DNA of 64,000 nucleotides from Capnocytophaga sputigena. GTDB lineage: Bacteria; Bacteroidota; Bacteroidia; Flavobacteriales; Flavobacteriaceae. Below are positions 1 through 15,912 of this stretch, piece after piece (within the stretch, counting starts at the first letter, position 1; each line of letters starts with the position of its first letter). The notes under the pieces are model-generated. The model did not search any database and was not told where the DNA came from. It worked only from the letters and a program-made list of their open reading frames with translations. Both the position numbers and the translations under genes were made by a program. The stretch lies in the NCBI RefSeq assembly GCF_900446695.1, contig NZ_UAVP01000008.1, positions 1-64,000 on the forward strand, in the 5' to 3' direction.

Positions 1-1122
<1,122 letters not shown>

Positions 1123-1799: not shown

Positions 1800-3308
1800 T
1801 TAATTTACTAAGGTGATATAAAGTAATCTGCCGCCTTCGTCGTTTGAGAGTATTATCTTTTTCTCATTGGTGAGCTCTACCATTGTACCAATGGGAATGG
1901 GTTTGTTTTCGGTAACGTCTTTCATATCGGGGAGGGATTGATTGACGAGCACCCATCTGTTTTGATAGAAGGTGAAATAACCTACAGGTTTTTTGTCGTC
2001 GTTAGTGAGATTCTCGTTACGGATGAGTTTGCGCGATACGTGCCACTTGAAAAGGAATTGGTTGTGATATACCATCAGGCGATGGTTTTCGGGTTTCCAC
2101 ACATTGTTACCTGCATTGTAATACAAATCGGCGATGGGGAGGCTACCGCGATGAGGGGTACCACAAAATGGACACTTAGGGCGAGCGGTATTATCGAACA
2201 CATACCACTTTTGAGTACAACTTGGGTTACTACAAGGTTGTATCAAATCTACAGTTTTGAGCAATGCTGTTTCCCATTCATTGGCGATAGGGCGCAACAT
2301 TGGGTTGTGCAATCCGTCGATGAAAGCACGGTTGAAAAGTTCGGTGAGGTAGGGACCTGTGATGGTATAAGGCAATTTAGCAGGGTCACCCCAAAAGGCG
2401 TCCCATTTGCGCAACTGGTCGGGTTTTACACGATTGGTGGCATCGGTGGGGTGTTCTATAAAGAGTGCCTTCTCCCCCATCGCTAATAATTCATCCTTTT
2501 CAGCATCTAAATCCCATACTTTGCTACCTTTGAGCGGGTGGCGGCGCAACAGATACATATATATAAGTACTGCCAAAGCGTGCAAATCAGTTTTTTGGTT
2601 AGGCAGTGCACGTTTAGGGTCTTTGATATCTAAATGTTTGGTGCTAAGTACTTCAGGAGCTATAAAATCGGCGGTACCGATAACCTCTGGAGGGAACATT
2701 CCAGGTACAACCAAACCATCTAAGTCGATGATATTTGCCGATTTGGTAACGGGGTCGATGAGGATATTATTGTAAGAGAGGTCGGAATGGGCGAGCCCCA
2801 TTTGGTGCATTTTCTTGATGCCGCGACAGATATTGATAGCGATTTGGAAATAGCTAAGCCAATCGCCTAACTCCGAAGGTGCCAAACAGAGTGGATACTG
2901 AGGATCGCGGAAAGAAGGGGTAGTGAACCACTTACCTTTTTTTTCCTCGCCTTTGAGTCCGTCGTCGGCAACACGTCCTTTGGCAAAGAAGAACTTACGG
3001 TCGTAGATAGGAACAATCACCCCTGTTTTGCCGTCTTTTTCAACAGCATCGTAGGGCCAGCGGAAAATCTCGTTGAGGAAATAATCGGGGGCGTTACCTT
3101 TTTTGATATTCTCCAAATACAGAGAGACGATGCGCTTGATGCGTTCTTTTTGGTTAAAATCTAAGGGGTCGCGGAAGAAAGCTACCACATAACGACGATC
3201 GGGAGAGAAGTACACATCTTTCACTCCTCCACGTTTGGGGTTGCCATCATCTACATATTGGTAGGATTTGGATGTATCTATAATTGATTTTACAGTAATT
3301 GTATTCAT
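1800..3308 (-). CDS. TerY-P-type protein kinase with C-terminal zinc ribbon
   Basis: A 502-residue soluble protein. The kinase fold is marked by the catalytic loop HSDLSYNN (residues 174-181), a metal-binding DLDG (195-198) in place of DFG, and IAPEV (216-220), the APE motif. A treble-cysteine-type ribbon with CSNPSC and CPFC lies around residues 355-385, followed by a beta-rich tail. The usual glycine loop and the VAIK lysine are hard to recognise in the first 60 residues. In the family described as the TerY-P triad, such a kinase works with a PP2C phosphatase and a vWA protein. Here it is the last gene of that operon, 1 nt after the phosphatase. Substrate unknown; role inferred from motifs and context. 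Confidence 0.85.
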   Translation of the reverse strand: MNTITVKSIIDTSKSYQYVDDGNPKRGGVKDVYFSPDRRYVVAFFRDPLDFNQKERIKRIVSLYLENIKKGNAPDYFLNEIFRWPYDAVEKDGKTGVIVPIYDRKFFFAKGRVADDGLKGEEKKGKWFTTPSFRDPQYPLCLAPSELGDWLSYFQIAINICRGIKKMHQMGLAHSDLSYNNILIDPVTKSANIIDLDGLVVPGMFPPEVIGTADFIAPEVLSTKHLDIKDPKRALPNQKTDLHALAVLIYMYLLRRHPLKGSKVWDLDAEKDELLAMGEKALFIEHPTDATNRVKPDQLRKWDAFWGDPAKLPYTITGPYLTELFNRAFIDGLHNPMLRPIANEWETALLKTVDLIQPCSNPSCTQKWYVFDNTARPKCPFCGTPHRGSLPIADLYYNAGNNVWKPENHRLMVYHNQFLFKWHVSRKLIRNENLTNDDKKPVGYFTFYQNRWVLVNQSLPDMKDVTENKPIPIGTMVELTNEKKIILSNDEGGRLLYITLVN

Positions 3309-3309
3309 T

Positions 3310-4686
3310 TTAATAAATAATCGCGAGGGTTCTATCGTCGGAATTGCCTTTGCTCCAGAAGTCGAGCCACTGGAGGAGCTGCTGGTCTATTTGGTTATCG
3401 TTTTGGAAATCGACTTGACAACAATCGTCGTTCTCTCCATTGAGGTCGGCTAAGAAATCATTCCAACGTTCTATTTTAGTAAGATTATTTTCCACTACAA
3501 ACTTAGGGTCGTAGATGCCGTCGGTCATTAGGAATAGTTTGGAAAAATCGTTAAAGCGATGAATACCAAAGCGTTTACCTACGGGTATTTCGGCATCGTT
3601 AGAATAAATCTCGGGCATAGTGATGAAACGCGTACCTCCGCCAAATTCACCTATATCTAATAGATTTAGCAATTGCACTTCGGTTTGAGCTTCATTTAGA
3701 ATACAAATAGGGCAATCGCCCACACCAAAGGTGAGTAGCACGTAGCCAAAATCGTATTTTTTAGCCAAAGCAAAAATAAGTGTTGTATGAAGGTCTTTCA
3801 GCGCAATTTCTTCGGCGTTAGCAAAATCTTCTAAATGACGGAAAAGTTCTCGCAACTTGCGATAAATGGCATTTACAATATTGCTCTTGTGCGTAAGGTC
3901 TTCCGCTGTTGCGAAATAAGCAACTACCTCTTGGTCGATTGTGTTTAGAAAACCGCTATCATTAAAACTATCACAAATAAAACGAGTGGCTATTTCGGAT
4001 CCTTTGCGAGCAAACTTAGCTGAGCCTGCCCCATCGGCGACAGCTATCACTTGCCAATCGTTGGGCAAAGGCAAAGTGTAGAAATCGTCGTCACGAGCAC
4101 CTCCTTGGTGAGCGTGCGACCTACCACGTTTAGAAGCAACTACGAGTTTTTTGTCTAAGAAAGAGGTTTTTAGGGTAGCTTCTTCAGTTTTGTAGAAACG
4201 CGCTTCTTTATGTAAAGGAATATTTTGCCAAAGGTCTTTGGGATCGGGATTGATGATGAAAGGCACTCGTTTTACCCGTTCAATCAAATCGGGGTCGGTG
4301 GTGCAATAGAAGTGAATTTCCAACTCGGTACTCGCTGCCATAGTAGGTTTTCCCTCGATAGTGCGAGTATCGGGGAAGAAAGTAAGCCCAAACTCTTCTA
4401 AATGACTAATGCGAGAGATGTGTATATGTGGAAATTCCTCTAAATTAAAACTGAAATTGTAGTCCTTTTTAGCATTAGCATTGGCAATTGGCAAATGAGC
4501 ATCTTGAAAAGACTCAATTTCGTAGTGTATTTGGTATTTTTCTTTCACTTCTTCTTGTAGTTGATGTGCTAAACTGCTTATTTTTTCGGATTGAGAGAGT
4601 ATAGAGAGTACTTTGGCTGCTACACGCGGATTAGGTTGCGCATTGGGATATTCAGCATTGATGATAGTTTGTATAATTTCGTCCAT
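3310..4686 (-). CDS. PP2C-family protein phosphatase of the TerY-P triad
   Basis: 458 residues. The N-terminal 180 residues are of unrecognised fold; the PP2C domain follows, with the metal-binding VADGAGSAKFARKG block (motif DGxG), a MTDGIYDPKF block and a final NSDDRTLAIIY (the conserved DD/DN metal ligand). Members of this family dephosphorylate Ser/Thr residues with Mn2+/Mg2+. The start codon overlaps the stop of the upstream terY-like gene, and the kinase follows after 1 nt, so the three should be made together. The natural reading is that it reverses phosphorylation by the neighbouring kinase, on a shared substrate or on the vWA partner. Confidence 0.88.
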   Translation of the reverse strand: MDEIIQTIINAEYPNAQPNPRVAAKVLSILSQSEKISSLAHQLQEEVKEKYQIHYEIESFQDAHLPIANANAKKDYNFSFNLEEFPHIHISRISHLEEFGLTFFPDTRTIEGKPTMAASTELEIHFYCTTDPDLIERVKRVPFIINPDPKDLWQNIPLHKEARFYKTEEATLKTSFLDKKLVVASKRGRSHAHQGGARDDDFYTLPLPNDWQVIAVADGAGSAKFARKGSEIATRFICDSFNDSGFLNTIDQEVVAYFATAEDLTHKSNIVNAIYRKLRELFRHLEDFANAEEIALKDLHTTLIFALAKKYDFGYVLLTFGVGDCPICILNEAQTEVQLLNLLDIGEFGGGTRFITMPEIYSNDAEIPVGKRFGIHRFNDFSKLFLMTDGIYDPKFVVENNLTKIERWNDFLADLNGENDDCCQVDFQNDNQIDQQLLQWLDFWSKGNSDDRTLAIIY

Positions 4687-5729
4687 TATCCTAAGGTTCT
4701 ATTGATGTCAAACTCTTCATCGGACATACCGTAGTTAGCCACAGTGCCACACCACGGACAGCTGTTCTCGCCTTCGCCAGAAATGCAGTGTACCCCACCA
4801 CAAGAGCAGGTTGCCAAAGCATAGGCATTGCCACAACAAGGGCAAGAAGGGTTACCCATCAACTCGTCCGATGACACTTTGAGAGCATAGTTCGTTTCAT
4901 TTGAGAATTCTTTATAACTATTCTCGTCTATTTTATAAGCCCCTTGTAGCATATAGATACGGGTTTGCATTCCGTAGATGCCCGAACTGCGAGAGCTTTT
5001 TTGGAATTTGATAAGGTATTGTTTTTGGGTATTAGAACACTTTCCGCGAATGACCACGAAGTTTTCATCGGGGACATCGTGGCGCTTGGTGAGGTCGATG
5101 CTTTCGATGAGGTGATGATCGGGTTTGGCGAGCTTGATAACATCGGTATTGGTGTTGTTCACCTGCTCGCTGGTGGTTTTGATAGAGGCTGTAATCCACT
5201 TAAAAAACTCTTTGTAGGCAGCTGCATTGGTGTTGTTGAACTGCAAGACTTGATCGGTGAGTTGCCCCAAGAGGTTGTAGTTTGTGTTCTCACCTAATGA
5301 AATTGCTACTAAGTTCACTTTACGGCGATAATGAGCATTCCAACGCTCGATAGCTTGAGCGGGGTCATCGGTAGGGATACCATCGGTGAAGAGGAAAACG
5401 AGAGGTTTCCAGTCGCCTTTGCGTTCGAGGGTAGTTTTCACCACCTCACGGTCGATAGCGTTCATCAGTTCGTTGAGCCCACTAGCGAGGGAAGTACCTC
5501 CGCCGATAGGAATCTTGGGTGGATAAAAAGTGATGATATCCTGCAAAGGTGTAATGACCTTGCTTTTGCCCGCAAAGCCAATGATAGAGAGCCAAACAGT
5601 TTCGAGTGCAAATGGATCGGCTTTGAGTTCTTTGATGATTGTAGCCATACCGTCTTGCACGTGTTCTATGGGGTCGCCGACCATTGATTCGGAGACGTCG
5701 AGGAGGAAATAAATGGGGAGTCTACGCAT
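4686..5729 (-). CDS. TerY-like vWA protein with C-terminal zinc ribbon
   Basis: 347 residues. A von Willebrand A domain occupies about residues 1-200 with a complete MIDAS: DVSES (11-15), the GGTSLASG loop and FTDGIPTDD. The C-terminus has a cysteine-rich ribbon (CPCC, then C-x-C, then CPWC, about residues 294-330). This architecture is that of TerY proteins in TerY-P triads. Metal-dependent vWA domains bind partner proteins, so it is probably the scaffold on which kinase, phosphatase and TerD proteins meet. It overlaps the phosphatase gene by one base and lies 21 nt downstream of another vWA gene. Confidence 0.88.
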   Translation of the reverse strand: MRRLPIYFLLDVSESMVGDPIEHVQDGMATIIKELKADPFALETVWLSIIGFAGKSKVITPLQDIITFYPPKIPIGGGTSLASGLNELMNAIDREVVKTTLERKGDWKPLVFLFTDGIPTDDPAQAIERWNAHYRRKVNLVAISLGENTNYNLLGQLTDQVLQFNNTNAAAYKEFFKWITASIKTTSEQVNNTNTDVIKLAKPDHHLIESIDLTKRHDVPDENFVVIRGKCSNTQKQYLIKFQKSSRSSGIYGMQTRIYMLQGAYKIDENSYKEFSNETNYALKVSSDELMGNPSCPCCGNAYALATCSCGGVHCISGEGENSCPWCGTVANYGMSDEEFDINRTLG

Positions 5730-5750
5730 ATTAGTGAAAAGTGAAAAGAA

Positions 5751-6389
5751 TTATACTACTAAATTGAGTTCACGTGGTGGCGGAGGGAGGGTCATTGATT
5801 CACCGGTGCCTTGTGATTTGCCACCCATTTCTATAGATGAACTCACCCATTTGAAAAAGGTAGTAAGCATATTGGCATCGGTGGTGTCGAGTTTTACCAC
5901 ATCGGGGGTGAGTTCTTGGAGGTAGGACACTTCGGCTTTGGGTCCTGCGGCACAACCTACAATCACACCAAAATCTAGGGCTTTTACTTTAGGGATATAT
6001 TCACGATACTTCTGTATATCAGAAGGTTTGCCATCGGTAAAGATAAACAAAAGCGGTTTCCAATCGCCTTTTTGTTGCGCTGAACCTCTGATGAGTTCGG
6101 TTTTTACCAAATCACACACCATTTCAAGAGCTTCACCTGTGTGAGTGGGTCCGCTTTCGGGACATTTGATTTCGATAGGCTGAAAAGAAGCTAAATCTAT
6201 CAGCGGGATGATGTTGCGCACTTCACGGTCGAAAGTAATGACACTCAAATGGAGGGAATCCATCGCCTGAGGGTCGTTGCGTAGCATATTGATGAGCCCA
6301 TAGAAGCCGTTGTTGAGGGCTTGGATAGGTTCACCGCTCATTGAGCCTGAAGTGTCTAAAAGAAAATAAGCTAAGAGTCGTCTGTTCAT
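5751..6389 (-). CDS. vWA domain protein (TerY-like, no zinc ribbon)
   Basis: 212 residues, essentially one vWA domain. MIDAS residues are visible: DTSGS (12-16), the threonine in GPTHTGEA, and FTDGKPSD. It ends in a PPPPREL tail very like that of the next vWA protein upstream (PPPPSEL), so the two are tandem paralogues. It lies 2 nt from its upstream neighbour and 21 nt from the terY-like gene. Inferred to be a cytosolic adaptor of the Ter module. Confidence 0.87.
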   Translation of the reverse strand: MNRRLLAYFLLDTSGSMSGEPIQALNNGFYGLINMLRNDPQAMDSLHLSVITFDREVRNIIPLIDLASFQPIEIKCPESGPTHTGEALEMVCDLVKTELIRGSAQQKGDWKPLLFIFTDGKPSDIQKYREYIPKVKALDFGVIVGCAAGPKAEVSYLQELTPDVVKLDTTDANMLTTFFKWVSSSIEMGGKSQGTGESMTLPPPPRELNLVV

Positions 6390-6391
6390 CG

Positions 6392-7030
6392 TTAGGAAAC
6401 AATTACTAATTCACTTGGTGGAGGAGGGAGTTGGTCTTTTTTGGTAAGGTCGATACCTGTTTCTTCTACTTTGGTAGAGGTAGTAGCAATGGAAGCTGAC
6501 ACCCATTGGAAGAATTTGCCAATGCTATCGGCATCGGTATTGCTAAGGCGCACTACTTGGTCGGATATTTCCTTAAGCACTTTATCATCGGCGTTATTAC
6601 CAGCGGCACATCCTACTATCAATCCTTTTTTCATGGCTTTAAGTTTTTGGAATCCCGCTTGCCAATCGTCGGTAGGGACACCATCGGTCATAATAAAAAC
6701 GATAGGTTTCCAGTCGCCTTTTTGTTCGAGAGTTGTTTTGGTTACTTCATTTTCTAATTTATCGGCGAGGAGGCTCAAGGCAGCTCCAAGGGCTGTTGTG
6801 CCAGCGGCTTTGAGGTCTACCATTTGGAAAGAAGCTAAATCGGTAAGGGGTATAAGTTGTTTGGCTTCAGAATCGAAAGTGATGATGCTCACAAAAGCAG
6901 TTTCGATAGCCTGAGGGTTTTGGCGCAGTGAGTGCACCATCATCTGCACGCCATTTTTCACTGCCTCTATAGGTTCGCCTGTCATTGAGCCAGAAGTATC
7001 TAAGAGGAGGTATACGGGAAGTCGTCTCAT
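6392..7030 (-). CDS. vWA domain protein (TerY-like, no zinc ribbon)
   Basis: 212 residues, the same length as its downstream paralogue. One vWA domain with MIDAS motifs DTSGS (11-15), GTTALG and MTDGVPTDD, ending in a proline-rich PPPPSEL segment. It is the first gene after a terminator-like hairpin at 7049-7082, so the signalling half of the operon (two vWA, TerY, PP2C, kinase) may be expressed at a different level from the TerD half. Confidence 0.87.
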   Translation of the reverse strand: MRRLPVYLLLDTSGSMTGEPIEAVKNGVQMMVHSLRQNPQAIETAFVSIITFDSEAKQLIPLTDLASFQMVDLKAAGTTALGAALSLLADKLENEVTKTTLEQKGDWKPIVFIMTDGVPTDDWQAGFQKLKAMKKGLIVGCAAGNNADDKVLKEISDQVVRLSNTDADSIGKFFQWVSASIATTSTKVEETGIDLTKKDQLPPPPSELVIVS

Positions 7031-7048
7031 AGTGTGATATGTTAAGAA

Positions 7049-7082
7049 AAGAGGCTGCCCTAAAGGGGAGAAACAGCCTCTC
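7049..7082 (-). terminator. Hairpin inside the Ter operon, possible attenuator
   Basis: Perfect 7-bp arms GAGGCTG (7051-7057) and CAGCCTC (7074-7080) flank a 16-nt loop. On the minus strand the hairpin is followed by TTTTCTT, a weak U-tract. It sits in the 56-nt gap between the small membrane protein and the vWA genes, so it could partly terminate transcription or shield the upstream mRNA from decay. Confidence 0.5.
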
Positions 7083-7086
7083 AGTT

Positions 7087-7506
7087 TTATGATATGTTGT
7101 ATGTTGAATTATTGTTATTCAATCCTGCTCCATAGGTTGAAGCATTTTGGCTTAAGCCTTGCCCATACCCAGAAGCTCCATACTCAGGATCGTTCTGGTT
7201 GATAAAGCTCATCACCTCTAAAGTAACATCTTTACCACCAGAAAGCACATTGTATAGGCAACCTATGGTATAGATAGGACCCCAAGGGATACCCCACCAC
7301 CCTAATATAAGGGTAAGGAAAAACCAGCCTAAACCTTGTGTAACTCTTGATTTACCAGGTTTGATAAAGTAGATGCCACTAGAACGTTTAAGAGTAACGA
7401 CTACTAGTGAGATACAGTAAGTATAGATTACAAACTTACCTCCTTGATTTACCAAATCGCGAATTTGGTTTGTAGACAAGCCTTCAACGTTGTTAATATC
7501 ATTCAT
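7087..7506 (-). CDS. Small membrane protein of the Ter operon, unknown family
   Basis: 139 residues. A hydrophilic start (1-25) is followed by a hydrophobic stretch around 26-40, a KRSSGIYFIKPGK segment, then a strongly hydrophobic Gly/Trp-rich stretch (about 56-85, containing GWWGIPWGP). The tail is rich in Gly, Asn and Tyr. I do not recognise a named family; the Gly-Trp-Gly-Ile-Pro-Trp-Gly pattern resembles TM2-like hairpins. It may anchor the TerD/vWA complex at the membrane, but that is inferred only from position. Confidence 0.75.
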   Translation of the reverse strand: MNDINNVEGLSTNQIRDLVNQGGKFVIYTYCISLVVVTLKRSSGIYFIKPGKSRVTQGLGWFFLTLILGWWGIPWGPIYTIGCLYNVLSGGKDVTLEVMSFINQNDPEYGASGYGQGLSQNASTYGAGLNNNNSTYNIS

Positions 7507-7521
7507 AATAATACTTTTGAA

Positions 7522-8181
7522 TTACAAATAGTTTTGAACAATACGGTGAATGGTTTGACCAAGGAAAGAATCGTCTACGGGATCACCGATAGCATCGAAT
7601 TTCCATTCGCCATTTCTCTTGTAGAGTTTTGCCAAAATAAGAGCGCGTTTGCCAGCGTAAGCAGGTTCGGCAGCTACGTTGTAAGAGGCAAATACAGAGT
7701 TTACACGCTGTGGAGTACCTTCGAACATACGAATTTTAGCATAAGGAATTTGTGAAAAGTCTTCTTTACCTACGTTGTTGAGGAAGAAGAAGATTTTAGA
7801 TACATTAGGAGCTACACGATCTAAGTTTACAGTGATAATTTCGTTATCAAGACCGTCGTCACCTCCTTTATCGCCTTGCAAATCGTCACCAGTGTGGTGA
7901 AGAGCGCCGTCATTGGAATCTAATTTTCCTTTAGGAAGACCAAATTGTTGCAAGATTTGGATATTGTACAAAGGAGAATAGAGGTGGTCACACACATTGT
8001 TATTGTCGTCGATAAGCACACAGCTAAGGTCTAAATCCACATCTTGTTTGTTTTTCATCAAACCAAAGAGAGCTTTAGTTTCGATAGCACCCCAGTTCAC
8101 TCCAATACAGAAGTTTTGTAGTTTTTCACCAGATTCTTTGCGTAGGTCGATTTTTTGACCTTTTTGTAAATTGATTGCCAT
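7522..8181 (-). CDS. TerD-family calcium-binding stress protein (divergent)
   Basis: 219 residues from the ATG at 8181; the reading frame extends 8 codons further up, but MAINLQKGQ is identical to the start of the two other TerD proteins here and fixes the start. TerD calcium-site regions are recognisable: DVDLDLS near residue 45 and HHTGDDLQGDKGGDDG near 80-95, but both differ from the canonical FDLDAS and GDDE forms kept by its neighbours. It is therefore the divergent member and may bind metal differently. Cytosolic; part of the Ter operon, 15 nt upstream of the small membrane protein. Confidence 0.9.
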   Translation of the reverse strand: MAINLQKGQKIDLRKESGEKLQNFCIGVNWGAIETKALFGLMKNKQDVDLDLSCVLIDDNNNVCDHLYSPLYNIQILQQFGLPKGKLDSNDGALHHTGDDLQGDKGGDDGLDNEIITVNLDRVAPNVSKIFFFLNNVGKEDFSQIPYAKIRMFEGTPQRVNSVFASYNVAAEPAYAGKRALILAKLYKRNGEWKFDAIGDPVDDSFLGQTIHRIVQNYL

Positions 8182-8198
8182 AAAAATAATTTTTAAAT

Positions 8199-8223
8199 TA
8201 ATCAATTAGCAGAGATTTTGCTA
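8199..8223. repeat. Inverted repeat upstream of divergent terD (copy 3 of 3)
   Basis: CAATTAGCA and TGCTAATTG form perfect 9-bp arms around a short A/T/G loop, located 18-42 nt upstream of the ATG at 8181. Same arms and position as the copies at 8820 and 11590, with a different centre. Confidence 0.6.
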
Positions 8224-8244
8224 ATTGAGAGGTTTATAATTCAG

Positions 8245-8799
8245 TTAATTGTATTTGTTAAGATAGTCTTCCAAGCCACCTTTCATTCCCATACCTACCG
8301 CTTCGAACTTCCATTCGCCATTGCGTTTGTAGATACGACCGAACTCTACAGCTGTTTCGATAGAAAAATCCTCTTCCAATTCGTATTTTAGCATTTCTTG
8401 ATTGGTAACCGAATCGAAAATGCGGATGAATGAATTGCGTACCTGACCGAAATTTTGTCCGCGTTGAGCAGCTTCGTGAATAGTTACCACGATGCAGATT
8501 TCGGCTGCATTAGGTTCTATTTTAGAGAGGTCGACAAGGATTTGCTCATCGTCGCCATCACCTGCTCCTGTGCGGTTGTCGCCGGTGTGGACTACTGCTT
8601 CATTAGGTGATTTGAGATTGTTGTAGAACACAAGGTGGCTATCTGACAACAATTTTTTGTTTTCGCCTAAGATAAATACCGAGGCGTCTAAATCGAAATC
8701 AGTACCTGTAGTAGAGCTGTTCGTATCCCAACCCAAACCTACGGTGAATTTAGGAGCATTGATGCTCTCTCTTTGTCCTTTTTGTAAGTTGATTGCCAT
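8245..8799 (-). CDS. terD: TerD-family calcium-binding stress protein
   Basis: 184 residues, close to the usual TerD length of about 190. It has the N-terminal MAINLQKGQ, the FDLDAS motif (acidic calcium ligands), HTGDNRTGAGDGDDEQI, and the C-terminal FGRIYKRNGEWKFEAVG typical of the family. TerD proteins bind Ca2+ in a beta-sandwich and are linked to tellurite, phage and other stress resistance. It is separated from the divergent TerD by 63 nt that contain an inverted repeat. Confidence 0.95.
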   Translation of the reverse strand: MAINLQKGQRESINAPKFTVGLGWDTNSSTTGTDFDLDASVFILGENKKLLSDSHLVFYNNLKSPNEAVVHTGDNRTGAGDGDDEQILVDLSKIEPNAAEICIVVTIHEAAQRGQNFGQVRNSFIRIFDSVTNQEMLKYELEEDFSIETAVEFGRIYKRNGEWKFEAVGMGMKGGLEDYLNKYN

Positions 8800-8819
8800 A
8801 AAATTAATTTATTAATTAG

Positions 8820-8841
8820 TCAATTAGCAAATTTGCCAATT
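8820..8841. repeat. Inverted repeat upstream of terD (copy 2 of 3)
   Basis: CAATTAGCAAATTTGCCAATTG is a palindrome with one mismatched pair, in the 48-nt gap between the unknown coiled-coil gene and terD. Flanking bases (TTAATTAGT before it, GGGG after it) are shared with the copy at 11590. Confidence 0.6.
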
Positions 8842-8847
8842 GGGGTG

Positions 8848-9804
8848 TTACTTGTTTAGGTTTAAATCGAGCATAGAAGTGAGGATGTTTTTTTCTTCCT
8901 CTATATTCAATTGTTCTTCGGTAAGGTTGTTGTTATCAATGGTTTCACGATATTTTGCCAAGAGTTCTTTTACATCCTCGGGGAAACTGTTGCGTATCTC
9001 TTTGCGTTTTTCTTCTAAGTCTCTTATTTTGCGTTCCAACTCCCCTACTAACGAATGACCATTGCTCACGTTTTTTTCGCGATTCAGTTGGTGCTTGAAG
9101 GCATCTTTTAGCAAATAGAAGCCATTGGTTTGTAGGTTCCAAATAAACTCATCATCGGAGCCGAGAATTCTAAAGAGCTCAAAAATTTGGAAATCTACAT
9201 TGAAACCACACATAAAACGCACTTTGAAGTTTTTGCTCGCCAAACGGGAGAGCAATAGGCGCTCAATATTCAGCCCTTCTAAGGTGTAGAGTTTCGTTCC
9301 TGGCACCACTAATAGGTGTGTGATATCATCGTCGTCGCGAAAATACTCCTCGGCATAGTGATTAGGGAAACTGCGGATTGCTGTGAGGTTGTAGGGCTTG
9401 TAGCTACCTGTGAGCGTACTATAAGCGGCTTGAAACACCGCCGATACCTCAGCCTCGTGATAACGCTGATCGGTTTCAAAACGGTTTTCGGCTTTGCCTT
9501 GGCGTGCCAGCTGAGCGATATAATCCTTATGGGCTGCTATTTCAGTATCAATATTGGTAATTGCAGCTTCCTTTTGCTTTTTGAGTTTGGTGAGTAGCTC
9601 GATAAGGCTATCGGTGTACTGCAAATGGAACAGCTCCAACTTGTTCACATCTAAGGCTTCGGTGTTTTTTTCAAAAAATGAATGGATAATCTCGGTACGT
9701 ACCACTATACCTACCAAGTCGGTTTGTTTGAAAAAGTTCTCTAATATTTTGAGTTTTTGTAACCTCCGTTTGCTATCATTCAGTATTTTTGTTTCTGTTC
9801 CCAA
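8848..9804 (-). CDS. Unknown coiled-coil protein encoded between telA and terD
   Basis: 318 residues, no signal peptide or membrane segment. About residues 1-110 and 255-315 are charged and heptad-like (likely coiled coils). The middle (about 115-250) looks globular with motifs such as HLLVVPGTKLYTLEGLNIE and FKVRFMCGFNVDFQIF. I do not recognise a family. It starts 3 nt after the telA stop codon, so translational coupling with TelA is likely and a physical partnership is the simplest guess. It is the least explained part of this Ter operon. Confidence 0.85.
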   Translation of the reverse strand: MGTETKILNDSKRRLQKLKILENFFKQTDLVGIVVRTEIIHSFFEKNTEALDVNKLELFHLQYTDSLIELLTKLKKQKEAAITNIDTEIAAHKDYIAQLARQGKAENRFETDQRYHEAEVSAVFQAAYSTLTGSYKPYNLTAIRSFPNHYAEEYFRDDDDITHLLVVPGTKLYTLEGLNIERLLLSRLASKNFKVRFMCGFNVDFQIFELFRILGSDDEFIWNLQTNGFYLLKDAFKHQLNREKNVSNGHSLVGELERKIRDLEEKRKEIRNSFPEDVKELLAKYRETIDNNNLTEEQLNIEEEKNILTSMLDLNLNK

Positions 9805-9807
9805 GTG

Positions 9808-10911
9808 TTATGCCTTTCTATTTTGCAATTGGTTTTTAAGAGTGGTTTCTAAGTTCTGCAATTCGTTATCCAACAAGCGGCGACTTTGCTCTCCTTGTTG
9901 TTGGATTTGTTTCACCTCGTTGAGGGTATTGATGAGTGAAGTAGTGGTTTCGCGCAAGGTATCGATAGAGACGATTGTTTGTTCGTTAGCACGAGCGACA
10001 TTCACGGTATTCTGTTGGAGACGCTGAGCGTTTTTGCGCAAAATTTCTTCGGTAGTTTGGGATACGCGTTGTTGTACCTCAATATGCTGTTGCTGGCGGT
10101 GTAAGGCTACAGCCAGCGTAAGTTGGTTTTTCCAAACAGGCAAAGTAGTAGTGAGGATGGTTTGTGCTTTTTCGGCTATAGACACGTTGTTGTTCTGTAT
10201 CAATCGGATTTGAGGTAACGATTGCAACATAATGAAGCGCACGACTTTCAAATCGGCTAAACGGCGGTCTAAGCGGTTGGCAAAGTCGCGTTTATCGGAA
10301 ATTTGATAATCTTGATACGCATCGGGGTTTGCTTCCATCAGAGCGAGTTCTTGCTTGGTTTTCTCGTAGCGCAAACTACCTGCAATGATGTACTCTTCAA
10401 TTTTTTTAATCGCATCAACATTGCTGCTAAAAATAGTTTGCAATACCGCGTTATCTTTAGTAGAATTGATAACTCCTGCATTCACCTTATTGGAAATATC
10501 GGTGATGTTGTTCACTATTTTGTCGTATTTGGCAAAAATATTATCTACCGTAGTTACCATACGCCCCAAGAGCGGTATTTTGCGCAAGAATTTTTTAAAT
10601 CCGTTACCTTCAAGCTCATCTACATCTACATAGTTGAGTTCGACAAGCAGTTTATTGATGAGCTCGCCTACCTCACCAGAGTTAGAGCGGCGTACATTGT
10701 TCAAAAAACTATCACTTTGTGAAGCCAATGTGTTTTGTAACTCAGCACCAAAGTTGATTACTGAATTAGGGTTTGTTTCTTCTATATTGGCAGCGATGAG
10801 TTCGTACTTAGAGGTATCGGCAGGTGTAAGATTTTGAAGGGTTACATTGCCGTTCTTATCGATTACTTGAGCATTTGTATCGAGTACTTGTAGTTCTAAG
10901 GTTTGTTCCAT
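9808..10911 (-). CDS. telA: TelA-family toxic anion resistance protein
   Basis: 367 residues from the ATG at 10911 (MEQTLELQV); an upstream in-frame start at 10953 would add 14 residues without support. The sequence shows the TelA signature: PLLGRMVTTVDNIFAKYDK, then a helical central part with an RRLADLKVVRFIMLQSLPQIRLIQ segment and a long C-terminal coiled coil rich in Gln, Asn and Arg. TelA proteins accompany TerD proteins in stress operons; their molecular activity is not settled. Upstream is terD (82-nt gap); downstream the unknown gene follows after 3 nt. Confidence 0.93.
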   Translation of the reverse strand: MEQTLELQVLDTNAQVIDKNGNVTLQNLTPADTSKYELIAANIEETNPNSVINFGAELQNTLASQSDSFLNNVRRSNSGEVGELINKLLVELNYVDVDELEGNGFKKFLRKIPLLGRMVTTVDNIFAKYDKIVNNITDISNKVNAGVINSTKDNAVLQTIFSSNVDAIKKIEEYIIAGSLRYEKTKQELALMEANPDAYQDYQISDKRDFANRLDRRLADLKVVRFIMLQSLPQIRLIQNNNVSIAEKAQTILTTTLPVWKNQLTLAVALHRQQQHIEVQQRVSQTTEEILRKNAQRLQQNTVNVARANEQTIVSIDTLRETTTSLINTLNEVKQIQQQGEQSRRLLDNELQNLETTLKNQLQNRKA

Positions 10912-10993
10912 AGTGTTTAAAATATTTTGATGTGAGTTATTAAAAACTCGCACTAATTTGACAAATGAATTATTAATTATATTTGTTAGTTAG

Positions 10994-11569
10994 TTATTTA
11001 ATAATTTCGCCTTTGTAGTATTTAGAAAGGAAAAATGCTAAATCTTCTTTGTAGCCAATGCCTGAGGCTTCAAATTTCCATTTGCCATTATGCTTGTAAA
11101 GACGACCAAATTCTACTGCTGTTTCTATAGAAAAATCTTCACCTAATTCGTATTTAGCTACCTCTTCGCCGTTAGCGTTATCGACGATGCGGATGTACGA
11201 ATTACGCACTTGTCCGTAGTTTTGTTTGCGGTTGAGTGCATCGTGAATGGTTACCACGAAAAGAATTTCGGTTACTCGAGGGTCTACTTTCGCGAGATCT
11301 ACTTGTATACTTTCGTCATCGCCATCGGCACTGTTACCTCCTGTAGGGTCGTCGCCAGTGTGGTGGAGAGCGCCATCGGGGGAATCGGTATTGCCGTAGA
11401 ACACAAAGAAAGGTTCAGAAGGGATAAGGCGCTGTGCATCTATCATAAAAGCTGAAGCGTCTAAATCGAAATCGTAGCCAGTACCCTCATTAGGATCCCA
11501 GCCTAATCCTATAGTTAAATTTTGTAGACCAATGTCTATACGTTGTCCTTTTTGTAAGTTGATTGCCAT
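10994..11569 (-). CDS. terD: TerD-family calcium-binding stress protein, first gene of the Ter operon
   Basis: 191 residues with MAINLQKGQ at the start, YDFDLDAS (calcium site), HHTGDDPTGGNSADGDDESI, YGQVRNSYIRI, and FGRLYKHNGKWKFEASG. It is closest to the TerD at 8245-8799 and carries the same features in full. It lies about 70 nt downstream of a consensus promoter, so it should be the most strongly expressed gene of the operon. Confidence 0.95.
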   Translation of the reverse strand: MAINLQKGQRIDIGLQNLTIGLGWDPNEGTGYDFDLDASAFMIDAQRLIPSEPFFVFYGNTDSPDGALHHTGDDPTGGNSADGDDESIQVDLAKVDPRVTEILFVVTIHDALNRKQNYGQVRNSYIRIVDNANGEEVAKYELGEDFSIETAVEFGRLYKHNGKWKFEASGIGYKEDLAFFLSKYYKGEIIK

Positions 11570-11589
11570 AATACTGATTTGTTAATTAG

Positions 11590-11612
11590 TCAATTAGCTA
11601 ATTAGCTAACTG
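11590..11612. repeat. Inverted repeat in the leader of terD (copy 1 of 3)
   Basis: CAATTAGC...GCTAA(C)TG forms a near-palindrome about 20-45 nt upstream of the terD start. Related inverted repeats sit at the same distance before the two other terD genes, at 8199-8223 and 8820-8841. Confidence 0.6.
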
Positions 11613-11643
11613 AGGGGATGTTATTTTATTAATTAATATGGTG

Positions 11644-11674
11644 CAAAGATAATAATAATTAGGAAATTTGCAAA
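11644..11674 (-). promoter_or_regulatory. Ter operon promoter
   Basis: TTTG (11671-11674), a 19-nt spacer and TATCTTTG (11644-11651) on the minus strand match the Bacteroidota promoter consensus exactly. The transcript would begin near 11638 and carry a leader of about 70 nt that includes the CAATTAGC inverted repeat at 11590-11612. Confidence 0.85.
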
Positions 11675-13876: not shown

Positions 13877-14617
13877 AAACGTGTTTAAACTTTTTTTAGG
13901 AACTTGGAGATAAAACCTAATAAAAGCATTCCAATCCAAGTTACATCAAGATACTCGTATCTCATTATCAAAACTTTATATCCGTCAAGCCAACCATTTG
14001 CTTGTCCAATTTTAAACCTATTTTTGTACAATTCTTCATCAAAATAAACATCTGGTTGCTCTCCATTTCGGGGATTAGGTTTAATATTTGCTATAATTTC
14101 TTTGCTTTCTAAAAACTCTCTAAGAGATTTGCTATCAAATCCTGCATCAGCATTGAGAAATAGATCTTTGTGTTCTATTCCTGCTTCTTCTAATAAAGCT
14201 AAGATTTCTTTTAGTACTTCTTCTATTTCATATAAGTCATTGTGATTTCCGGCTTTAGGACTCCCCATTGCTATCATTTACCCTTTATTATCACACAAAA
14301 AAATACTATTTGTAGTTACGGATTTTTTTCTTGCTTGATAGCCTGTAGATTCTCCTTTTTGCCGACAACGTGTATGACTACCATCCAATTGAACGCAAGA
14401 CATATCTAATTTTCTTTTCTTCTTGCTTAATAGATTTAACCATATTCGCTGAAAGCTACCGTCTTTACTTTCCTACACTTAAAAAGGGAATAATCCAATT
14501 ATTTATTGTATTTTTGCACAAAGTTCCTGAATTTTGGTGTTCTTTTTTTCTCAAACACAAAATTACTAATTTTCGGGAACTTTTATTTTATTATAGGAAA
14601 AAGTTTAAACAGCTTCA
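13876..14617 (-). mobile_element. IS remnant, copy 1 (IS5-like)
   Basis: About 742 bp bounded by imperfect inverted repeats. The plus-strand left end is TAAACGTGTTTAAACTTTTT and the right end is its near-complement AAAAAGTTTAAACAGCTTCA; 12 of the outer 15 bases match. Ends were placed by comparing with the second copy at 16109-16543. No target duplication is evident. The right end lies 12 bp from the stop codon of the WG-repeat gene. Confidence 0.75.
13885..14558 (-). pseudogene. IS5-like transposase, interrupted
   Basis: Transposase-type sequence is read in pieces: an N-terminal FEKKRTPKFRNFVQKYNK followed by a stop, then (other frame) SKDGSFQRIWLNLLSKKKRK, CVQLDGSHTRC and TTNSIFLCDNKG (a DDE-type first Asp region). 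A stop codon follows, then the longest piece with LFLNADAGFDS (second Asp), IANIKPNPRN, and IGQANGWLDGYKVLIMRYE to the C-terminus. The stop after DNKG is CAA (Gln) in copy 2, so it is a real mutation. The upstream frame change could instead be a programmed shift, as known in some IS5 subgroups. Copy 1 is unlikely to make active enzyme. Confidence 0.7.
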
Positions 14618-14628
14618 TTTTTTAAAAG

Positions 14629-15912
14629 TTATTTGGCTATGGGGTGGTCGGCAGGGGCATTATTACAGTCTTTCACACATTCTCCTTTTTGGTTTATATA
14701 GAACCATTTGTTATTTAGCTTTACTTGTGCTAATCCTTCTTCTGAAAATCCTTCTGCATAATCATACTTTATAGGAATCACTTCTTTGCCTGTTTTATCT
14801 ATAAAGCCATATTTATCATTCAATTTTACTTTAGCTAATCCTTCTGAAGGACTTTCAGCATCATCATACTTTATAGGAATCACTTCTTTACCTGTTTTAT
14901 CTATAAAACCCCATTTGTTATTTAGACTTACGGCTGCTAATCCTTCTGAAAAATACCAAACATCATCATACTTTATAGGAATCACTTCTTTACCTGTTTT
15001 ATCTATAAAACCATATTTTCCATTCAAACTCACGCTTGCTAATCCTTCTGAAAAACTACTCGCATCATCATACTTTATAGGAGTCACTTCTTTACCTGTT
15101 TTATCTATAAAACCCCATTTGTTATTTAGCAGAACTTTTGCTAATCCTTCTGAAAAAAGCCAAATATAATCATACTTTATAGGAATCACTTCTTTACCTG
15201 TTTTATCTATAAAACCCGATTTGTTATTTAGACTAACCTTTGCTAATCCTTCTGAAAAATCCCAAACATCATAATCATACTTTATAGGAATCACTTCTTT
15301 ACCTGTTTTATCTATAAAACCATAACTATAATTCAAACTCACGCTTGCTAATCCTTCTGAAAAACTGCTCGCATCATCATACTTTATAGGAATCACTTCT
15401 TTACCTGTTTTATCTATAAAACCATATCTATTATTCAATTTTACTAAAGCTAATCCTTCTGAAAAAACCCTAGCATTATCATACTTTATAGGAGTCACTT
15501 CTTTACCTGTTTTATCTATAAAACCATATTTTTTATCTAATATTACTAAAGCTAATCCTTCTGAAAATCTATCTGCATAATTATACTTTATAGGAATCAC
15601 TTCTTTACCTGTTTTATCTATAAAACCCCATTTGTTATTTAGCCTAACGTTTGCTAATCCTTCTGAAAAACCCCAAGCATTATCATACTTTATAGGAATC
15701 ACTTCTTTACCTGTTTTATCTATAAAACCATATTTTTTATCCAATCTTACCATTGCTAATCCTTCATAATATTTACCTTTCCAAGCGTACTTCTTTGTTT
15801 GTTGCACAGGCTGGGCAGACGGCTCTTTTTTTACCTTTTCTTCAGGTAGCAGACCTTGCGCATAGGTTAGGGTAGCAGTTAGTAATAGAGTGTAAAGTAA
15901 TATATTTTTCAT
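14629..15912 (-). CDS. Secreted WG-repeat protein
   Basis: 427 residues. A signal peptide (MKNILLYTLLLTATLTYAQG) precedes a low-complexity linker, then ten near-identical 34-residue WG repeats of the type (K)(Y/W)GFIDKTGKEVIPIKY...FSEGLA.V.LN, and a half repeat with cysteines (KGECVKDCNNAPADHPIAK). The 102-bp DNA units are very alike, so copy number can change by recombination. WG repeats are thought to form beta-propeller-like structures; function unknown. A truncated paralogue with the same Cys/His-Pro-Ile ending lies 21 nt upstream. IS remnants flank both. Confidence 0.9.
   Translation of the reverse strand: MKNILLYTLLLTATLTYAQGLLPEEKVKKEPSAQPVQQTKKYAWKGKYYEGLAMVRLDKKYGFIDKTGKEVIPIKYDNAWGFSEGLANVRLNNKWGFIDKTGKEVIPIKYNYADRFSEGLALVILDKKYGFIDKTGKEVTPIKYDNARVFSEGLALVKLNNRYGFIDKTGKEVIPIKYDDASSFSEGLASVSLNYSYGFIDKTGKEVIPIKYDYDVWDFSEGLAKVSLNNKSGFIDKTGKEVIPIKYDYIWLFSEGLAKVLLNNKWGFIDKTGKEVTPIKYDDASSFSEGLASVSLNGKYGFIDKTGKEVIPIKYDDVWYFSEGLAAVSLNNKWGFIDKTGKEVIPIKYDDAESPSEGLAKVKLNDKYGFIDKTGKEVIPIKYDYAEGFSEEGLAQVKLNNKWFYINQKGECVKDCNNAPADHPIAK

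Follow-up and report, generated by a model that had tools for sequence, protein, structure and literature searches.

Does the gene cluster near the beginning of this stretch of Capnocytophaga sputigena DNA make up a complete Ter-type stress system, or only part of one? The window, by which we mean the whole stretch that was analysed (positions 1..64,000 of contig C9, its first base being the contig start, in a genome of 3.05 Mb), carries eleven open reading frames on the minus strand, spanning 11569 down to 1800, as the earlier note had described. Pfam families account for nine of the eleven products (a kinase, PP2C_2, VWA with TerY_C, two further VWA proteins, three TerD proteins and TelA); the other two, a 318-amino-acid product that we call gene 9 and a 139-amino-acid product, have no Pfam family. 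The proposal of a Ter-type set that includes a TerY-P phospho-switch is supported by both the families and the motifs, which are in place. The description of the operon as complete had to be given up: the locus has no TerC, and the HAD and PRTase genes, which travel with TelA, are found on a different contig. Comparison with relatives indicates that the Ter operon is two separable modules, fused, and that gene 9 is a core component of one of them.

Module A consists of TerD, the vWA genes, TerY_C, PP2C and the zinc-ribbon kinase, and module B of HAD, PRTase_3, TerD, TelA, gene 9 and TerC. The loci that were read belong to 13 genomes with TerY_C, four of 20 in the genus and ten of 395 in a phylum sample, the C. 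sputigena genome (G000) being counted in both. A single run in four genomes of the genus g127 and in G728 reads HAD, PRTase_3, TerD, TelA, gene 9, TerD, vWA, TerY_C, PP2C, kinase, TerC, with TerC in G573, G721 and G740 assigned by N-terminal resemblance. The modules are two separate operons in G676, G611 and G664, where module B is arranged HAD-PRTase-TerD-TelA-gene 9-TerD-TerC and module A TerD-TerD-vWA-TerY_C-PP2C-kinase, the latter cut by a contig end in G664. Module A is also present in G709, from which gene 9 and PRTase_3 are absent genome-wide, and in G013, which has no PRTase_3 or HAD genome-wide. Six of the 15 phylum-sample genomes with gene 9 have no TerY_C match, and module B stands alone there; in all six, a single operon holds HAD, PRTase_3, TelA, gene 9 and TerC together with two TerD genes.

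The gene 9 profile matches 15 of the 395 phylum genomes, and PRTase_3 reaches its cut-off in the same 15, which span seven genera and four families (three further genomes have weak PRTase_3 matches below the cut-off). The resulting two-by-two table, 15/0/0/380 for 395 genomes, gives a Fisher probability of 1.9e-27, or 1.3e-12 when counted by genus, values that ignore phylogeny; the table for TerY_C and gene 9, 9/1/6/379, gives 8.4e-14, which likewise ignores it. With G011 and G016 added to the 15, there are 17 module B genomes. TelA is kept in 17 genomes, and in all 17 module B genomes gene 9 lies directly downstream of it, at gaps of 3-36 bases. The PRTase gene is 2.2-3.7 kb from gene 9 in 14 of the 17, and the TerC gene is within the run in 14 of the 17; for both, the three exceptions are the Capnocytophaga genomes. 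The earlier note had staked its reading on the genes being conserved together in other genomes, and in these Bacteroidota genomes they are.

The two modules might be independent systems that were joined by transfer and share only a promoter, with no signalling between them, B dealing with toxic oxyanions and A acting as a TerY-P phage defence. Their separate existence (A only in G709, B only in six genomes) favours this explanation, and protection against phage by TerY-P alone is reported in the available sections of PMC10889362, which concerns Pseudomonas, and of PMC7699616. However, of the ten genomes with TerY_C among the 395, nine carry gene 9 as well, and G000, G011, G145, G573, G721, G740 and G728 interleave the genes of A and B in one run with shared TerD genes. 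We regard independence as possible but rather doubtful.

The nucleoside-type biosynthesis genes, PRTase and HAD, are present in the C. sputigena genome, unlinked to the operon. PRTase_3 and HAD occur in three of the 20 genus genomes, G000, G011 (with one extra weak HAD match) and G016, and these are the three that have TelA and gene 9 at the TerY_C locus. In G000 and G011 the pair lies on another contig, between an upstream gene for a MauG-type cytochrome c peroxidase and a downstream DUF4130 gene. The gene upstream of DUF4130 is the same in six of the seven relatives read (with an open reading frame of 153 amino acids between them in G013), G010 being the exception, and no HAD or PRTase was found at this stretch in any of the seven. 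A pair that sits among such unrelated genes could, in Capnocytophaga, have acquired a different function and dropped out of the system. Yet, of the 20 genus genomes, the genes are kept solely by the three in which the Ter locus has TelA and gene 9, and the motifs of both PRTase and HAD look intact by eye, and we consider a change of role quite improbable.

In trees of gene 9, of TelA and of PRTase, shown without support values, Capnocytophaga falls beside G728, a member of another family, and not beside the g127 genomes of its own family; the kinase is 80% identical to that of G728 and 68% to a g127 kinase. We infer that Capnocytophaga acquired the fused operon from a source outside its family and that relocation or deletion afterwards removed HAD, PRTase and TerC from it. 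The absence of TerC from the locus, which the earlier note reported correctly and took as the mark of a variant set, thus looks, by comparison with relatives, more like loss from a fuller layout. No clean empty site for the operon was found among relatives. The gene 3' of the formate-tetrahydrofolate ligase gene varies among them; in G010 and G009 it encodes 857-858 amino acids, and its counterpart in C. sputigena is near C9:57.6 kb, indicating that the region has been rearranged.

The genome's one TerC gene, at C9:66873-67478, lies 2.9 kb past the window end. Because this form is found genus-wide, in 18 of 20 genomes, it is not specific to the operon. It gives no match at E 1e-3 to the long form of operon TerC and aligns with the short form in short stretches at 21-37% identity; judged by these alignments, it is only a distant relative of the operon forms. 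No TerB was found among the eleven operon products, and no genome-wide search for TerB was made. The operon's three TerD genes are the only three in the genome. The 184-amino-acid TerD matches PDB entry 2kxt at E 2.8e-53, and the two share the runs DFDLDAS and HTGDN-TG-GDGDDE, which presumably bind calcium. TelA has no relative of solved structure at E 0.01. Judged by its homologues, TelA probably begins 14-18 codons further in than the listed GTG, and by the same kind of comparison the divergent TerD likely starts at ATG 8181. TelA-like genes occur in 108 of 50,697 phage records. One is on the Prevotella megaphage Lak-C1 (L112 11908-13029, plus strand, E 1.2e-95); in the 25 kb read there, TelA was the sole match of eight profiles, with no gene 9, PRTase, HAD, TerD or TerY-P.

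The presence of TerD and TerY_C, both metal-linked families, raises the alternative that the operon simply serves metal or oxyanion homeostasis (Ca, Mn, Zn, tellurite), its phospho-switch regulating metal handling and not defence. A P-type cation ATPase gene that begins 29 bases past the TerY-P kinase gene in G013 (L022 4275-7016, minus strand) agrees with it, but the operon here lacks TerC, its membrane transporter, and metal transport by itself does not account for the tie to PRTase and HAD. The Klebsiella terC gene can be cited on both sides, since, in the accessible part of PMC12054061, it affects resistance to tellurite, Zn and Mn and also has an effect on phage. We hold metal homeostasis as the sole role to be unlikely.

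Gene 9 and the 139-amino-acid protein had been put forward as two unnamed partners. Neither has a family, but they are not equals: gene 9 is a core component, unlike the membrane gene. The latter has homologues in five of the 13 TerY_C loci (its own in G000, and G145, G573, G721 and G728) and no plasmid match, and is therefore an optional partner. The gene 9 alignment comprises 16 distinct members, 28-71% identical to the protein in the window, with 38 invariant columns. Its relative in Capnocytophaga periodontitidis, 97% identical, was the sole one obtained from a pattern scan of named genomes. A single-sequence search of 397 family genomes matched G000, G145 and G150, the last of which (E 5.9e-4) was ruled out, its open reading frame being a Phenol_MetA_deg protein. 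There was no gene 9 match in 72,556 plasmids at E 1e-2, and none in viral contigs in a pattern-limited search.

Several candidate affiliations of gene 9 were tried and rejected. Searches of Pfam with eight and then 16 members gave a best E of 0.0041, to FlgN, from two of the 16 members, and a search of NCBIfam with 16 members gave a best E of 0.0014, from one member; both were taken as chance. PDB profiles yielded nothing at E 1 and later one de novo design at 0.25, also taken as chance. The AlphaFold model, with a mean pLDDT of 43.8, gives only a hint that the protein may be mostly helical. TelA has a dedicated neighbour in Bacillota as well, where it was paired with XpaC in both loci opened; XpaC is upstream of TelA, whereas gene 9 is downstream, and the two have no detectable relation (hhalign probability 0.1%, with an XpaC profile of two sequences). 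Set against TelA, gene 9 likewise showed no relation (hhalign probability 0.4%).

The proteins of the proposed switch retain the residues on which their activities are expected to depend. MIDAS residues are present in all three vWA proteins, the acidic motifs of PP2C are invariant in nine of nine aligned rows, and the kinase has its HSD and DxDG motifs, together with zinc-ribbon cysteines C359, C364, C379 and C382 that are invariant in ten of ten rows and form a zinc site predicted from the alignment; these are the motifs expected of the families concerned. With vWA/TerY_C, PP2C and kinase genes side by side and their motifs intact, the set is a TerY-P triad. TerY_C, PP2C and kinase are in the same order in 11 of the 13 TerY_C-bearing genomes, and the other two loci end at contig ends, inside PP2C in G664 and, in G016, without PP2C in the remaining 935 bases. 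Within kinase residues 24-50 there is no lysine at the VAxK place (rows read VAFF, VAIF or VAFY), and K30, just past the glycine loop (GGVKDVYF), is invariant in ten of ten rows, a placement that we take to resemble that of WNK kinases. The AlphaFold model of the kinase has a mean pLDDT of 33.2. An FHA fold for the kinase tail was considered and rejected, with no PDB match at E 5 and no credible Pfam match. No relatives of the kinase were found in viral contigs. Two secreted-looking genes without clear family lie between vWA and TerY_C in G011 (L021 4164-7059, minus strand), and several g127 genomes have different small genes there; the vWA/TerY_C junction looks like a variable cargo site.

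The kind of system is already known, namely a Ter system with a TerY-P triad. Its nearest plasmid counterpart is the ter cluster of IncHI-type plasmids (the terY/terX/terW region with terZABCDEF), in which vWA, TerD, vWA, TerY_C, PP2C and kinase genes are in a row. This row was seen in the two loci opened, one of them on an Enterobacter plasmid of type IncHI1A and the other on Polaromonas pPNAP04; a third plasmid locus, from Hymenobacter, has annotated vWA and PP2C genes by an unannotated, broken-up kinase match. The Capnocytophaga kinase is 50.8% identical over its full length to kinases on enterobacterial ter plasmids, and it has matches in 2343 of 72,556 plasmid records, 2194 of which cover at least 80% of the query. 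The layouts differ in that TerD is between the two vWA genes on the plasmids, whereas it is ahead of them in Capnocytophaga, and in that the plasmid loci carry extra ATP-grasp, HpcH/HpaI-type and StiP genes. None of those three is in the Capnocytophaga operon and none was noticed by the pair on contig C10, a partly annotated region, no genome-wide search having been made. The PRTase_3 and HAD profiles did not match the PRTase and HAD genes of the two plasmid loci at E 1e-3, and TelA and gene 9 had no match there.

The Capnocytophaga operon shares its vWA, PP2C and kinase genes with the TerY-P anti-phage triad, reportedly the Gao 2020 type. That triad is described in the available portions of PMC7699616, PMC11090510 and PMC10889362. 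The stand-alone kinase has an OB fold, whereas the Capnocytophaga kinase has a zinc-ribbon end (the Ter/CoCoNuT-associated type) and is embedded with TerD and TelA; the PADLOC family STK_OB matches it at E 0.048 over 38 residues, short of what marks the stand-alone type, and nine other operon products matched no PADLOC family (the 184-amino-acid TerD was left out). As regards CoCoNuT Type II/III-A, the operon contains no McrB-like GTPase or coiled-coil nuclease, genes for which no genome-wide search was made. The Ter system of Anantharaman, Iyer and Aravind 2012 is said to unite TerD, TelA, PRTase and HAD biosynthesis and a TerY-P switch, the same parts as in the Capnocytophaga set, from which the modular split and the relocation distinguish the latter. 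What is new is the division into modules seen across Bacteroidota, the displacement of HAD and PRTase in Capnocytophaga, and the recognition of gene 9 as core, although gene 9 may already be listed in the 2012 comparative study. No paper title on a Capnocytophaga Ter operon came up in the literature searches made.

The arrangement of the genes suggests transcription from one promoter. The ten intergenic gaps, with starts as listed, are -1, 1, 2, 3, 15, 21, 39, 40, 48 and 56 bases, so that the description of the genes as overlapping or a few bases apart applies strictly to four of the ten junctions and not to the rest (15-56 bases). The single promoter of the earlier note was recovered as one match of Bacteroidota form, 75 bases ahead of the first ATG, and a scan for TTTG-N17-21-TANNTTTG found no other minus-strand match between 1305 and 16655. 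The pattern has 17 matches in the window on both strands, where first-order Markov sequence gives 3.15 on average. A scan for E. coli-type promoters was uninformative (23 found versus 33.1 expected, no excess), and terminator-like sites were not in excess in the window (15 versus 14.5 expected). A hairpin of ten pairs, just three of them G-C, lies between two TerD genes (8228-8202). The minus-strand match at 1305 precedes the 16S rRNA, which is partial because the window begins at the first base of the contig; the neighbouring rRNA operon is therefore observed as this 16S portion, and a full operon beside the Ter operon is presumed. G-rich degenerate tandem repeats with periods of 9-20 (1378-1592) separate the kinase gene from the promoter of the 16S rRNA. 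On the other side, a WG-repeat protein (14629-15912; ten stretches, PF14903) is adjoined by a transposase-like fragment (13885-14277).

Features of the Ter operon, its neighbour and the unlinked gene pair; positions are those of the window unless a contig is named.
Feature	Position	Strand	Basis
Bacteroidota-type promoter, TTTG-N19-TATCTTTG	11644..11674	minus	sequence and pattern scan
TerD, 191 amino acids, first gene	10994..11569	minus	Pfam TerD, 224 bits
TelA (module B)	9808..10953	minus	Pfam TelA, E 3.1e-87
Gene 9, 318 amino acids, no family found, core of module B	8848..9804	minus	context and co-occurrence
TerD, 184 amino acids	8245..8799	minus	Pfam TerD, 246 bits
Divergent TerD	7522..8205	minus	Pfam TerD, 109.5 bits
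Predicted membrane protein, 139 amino acids, optional partner	7087..7506	minus	no Pfam family, best E 0.19
vWA protein (TerY-like), MIDAS residues retained	6392..7030	minus	Pfam, motif check
vWA protein (TerY-like), MIDAS residues retained	5751..6389	minus	Pfam, motif check
vWA with TerY_C metal-binding domain	4686..5729	minus	Pfam TerY_C, E 1e-40
PP2C phosphatase	3310..4686	minus	PP2C_2, E 9.6e-30
Kinase, C-terminal zinc ribbon and 115-amino-acid tail	1800..3308	minus	Pfam, alignment
16S rRNA, 5' part; neighbour, outside the system	1..1122	minus	Rfam RF00177, model positions 1-1130 of 1533
HAD and PRTase pair	C10:171039-172491		profile search of genome

Taken together, we lean, with some reserve, towards reading the locus as a chromosomal Ter-type stress or defence system of two co-transcribed modules, with A as the switch and B as the effector arm. 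The vWA and TerD proteins would bind metal ions and gather the kinase and the phosphatase around them, making module A a metal-dependent phosphorylation switch, and the balance of kinase and phosphatase would in turn switch the effector arm. The PRTase and the HAD phosphatase, both relocated here, may make, process or trim a nucleoside-type compound, to which a helical assembly of TelA and gene 9 would answer at the membrane. Calcium-binding TerD proteins would link the two modules near the membrane, and the output would be tolerance of phage or of toxic ions. In the Capnocytophaga lineage HAD and PRTase have moved out of the operon, and its TerC would have been lost. Gene content and order, conserved motifs, module B standing by itself, the co-occurrence and the relocation are seen directly in the genomes; the signalling compound, the contacts of TelA with gene 9 and of TerD with the vWA proteins, the direction in which the signal runs, the stress or phage output and the single complex of the earlier note are predictions. 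A comparable model in the available part of PMC7824862 has nucleotide biosynthesis, sensing by TerB and TerD, and sub-membrane structures of TelA.

More tentatively, module B could be a self-contained, unnamed signalling system in which an alarm nucleotide from PRTase_3 and HAD is read at the membrane by an assembly of TelA and gene 9, gene 9 founding a new family that serves TelA of Bacteroidota as its obligate receptor or regulator. Some observations tell against the two-module system and its proposed history. In G016 the HAD gene neighbours a TerD gene close to the Ter locus, with the PRTase gene on a third contig of 3.7 kb, and given this separation the two do not form a strict pair. In the HAD tree, unlike the other three, Capnocytophaga is not placed beside G728. 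G013 has neither TelA nor gene 9 in 20 kb of its locus, these two not having been searched for genome-wide. Finally, the co-occurrence of gene 9 with PRTase_3 could reflect a shared history of transfer and not joint function.

Ter operons are common and their role is unsettled; the division described here makes the question testable module by module. It delimits the gene units, TelA, gene 9, PRTase_3 and HAD (usually with TerC) on one side and TerY-P on the other, and it singles out gene 9 as a core component worth study. The implication for Capnocytophaga is that a search confined to the operon would overlook half of the machinery.

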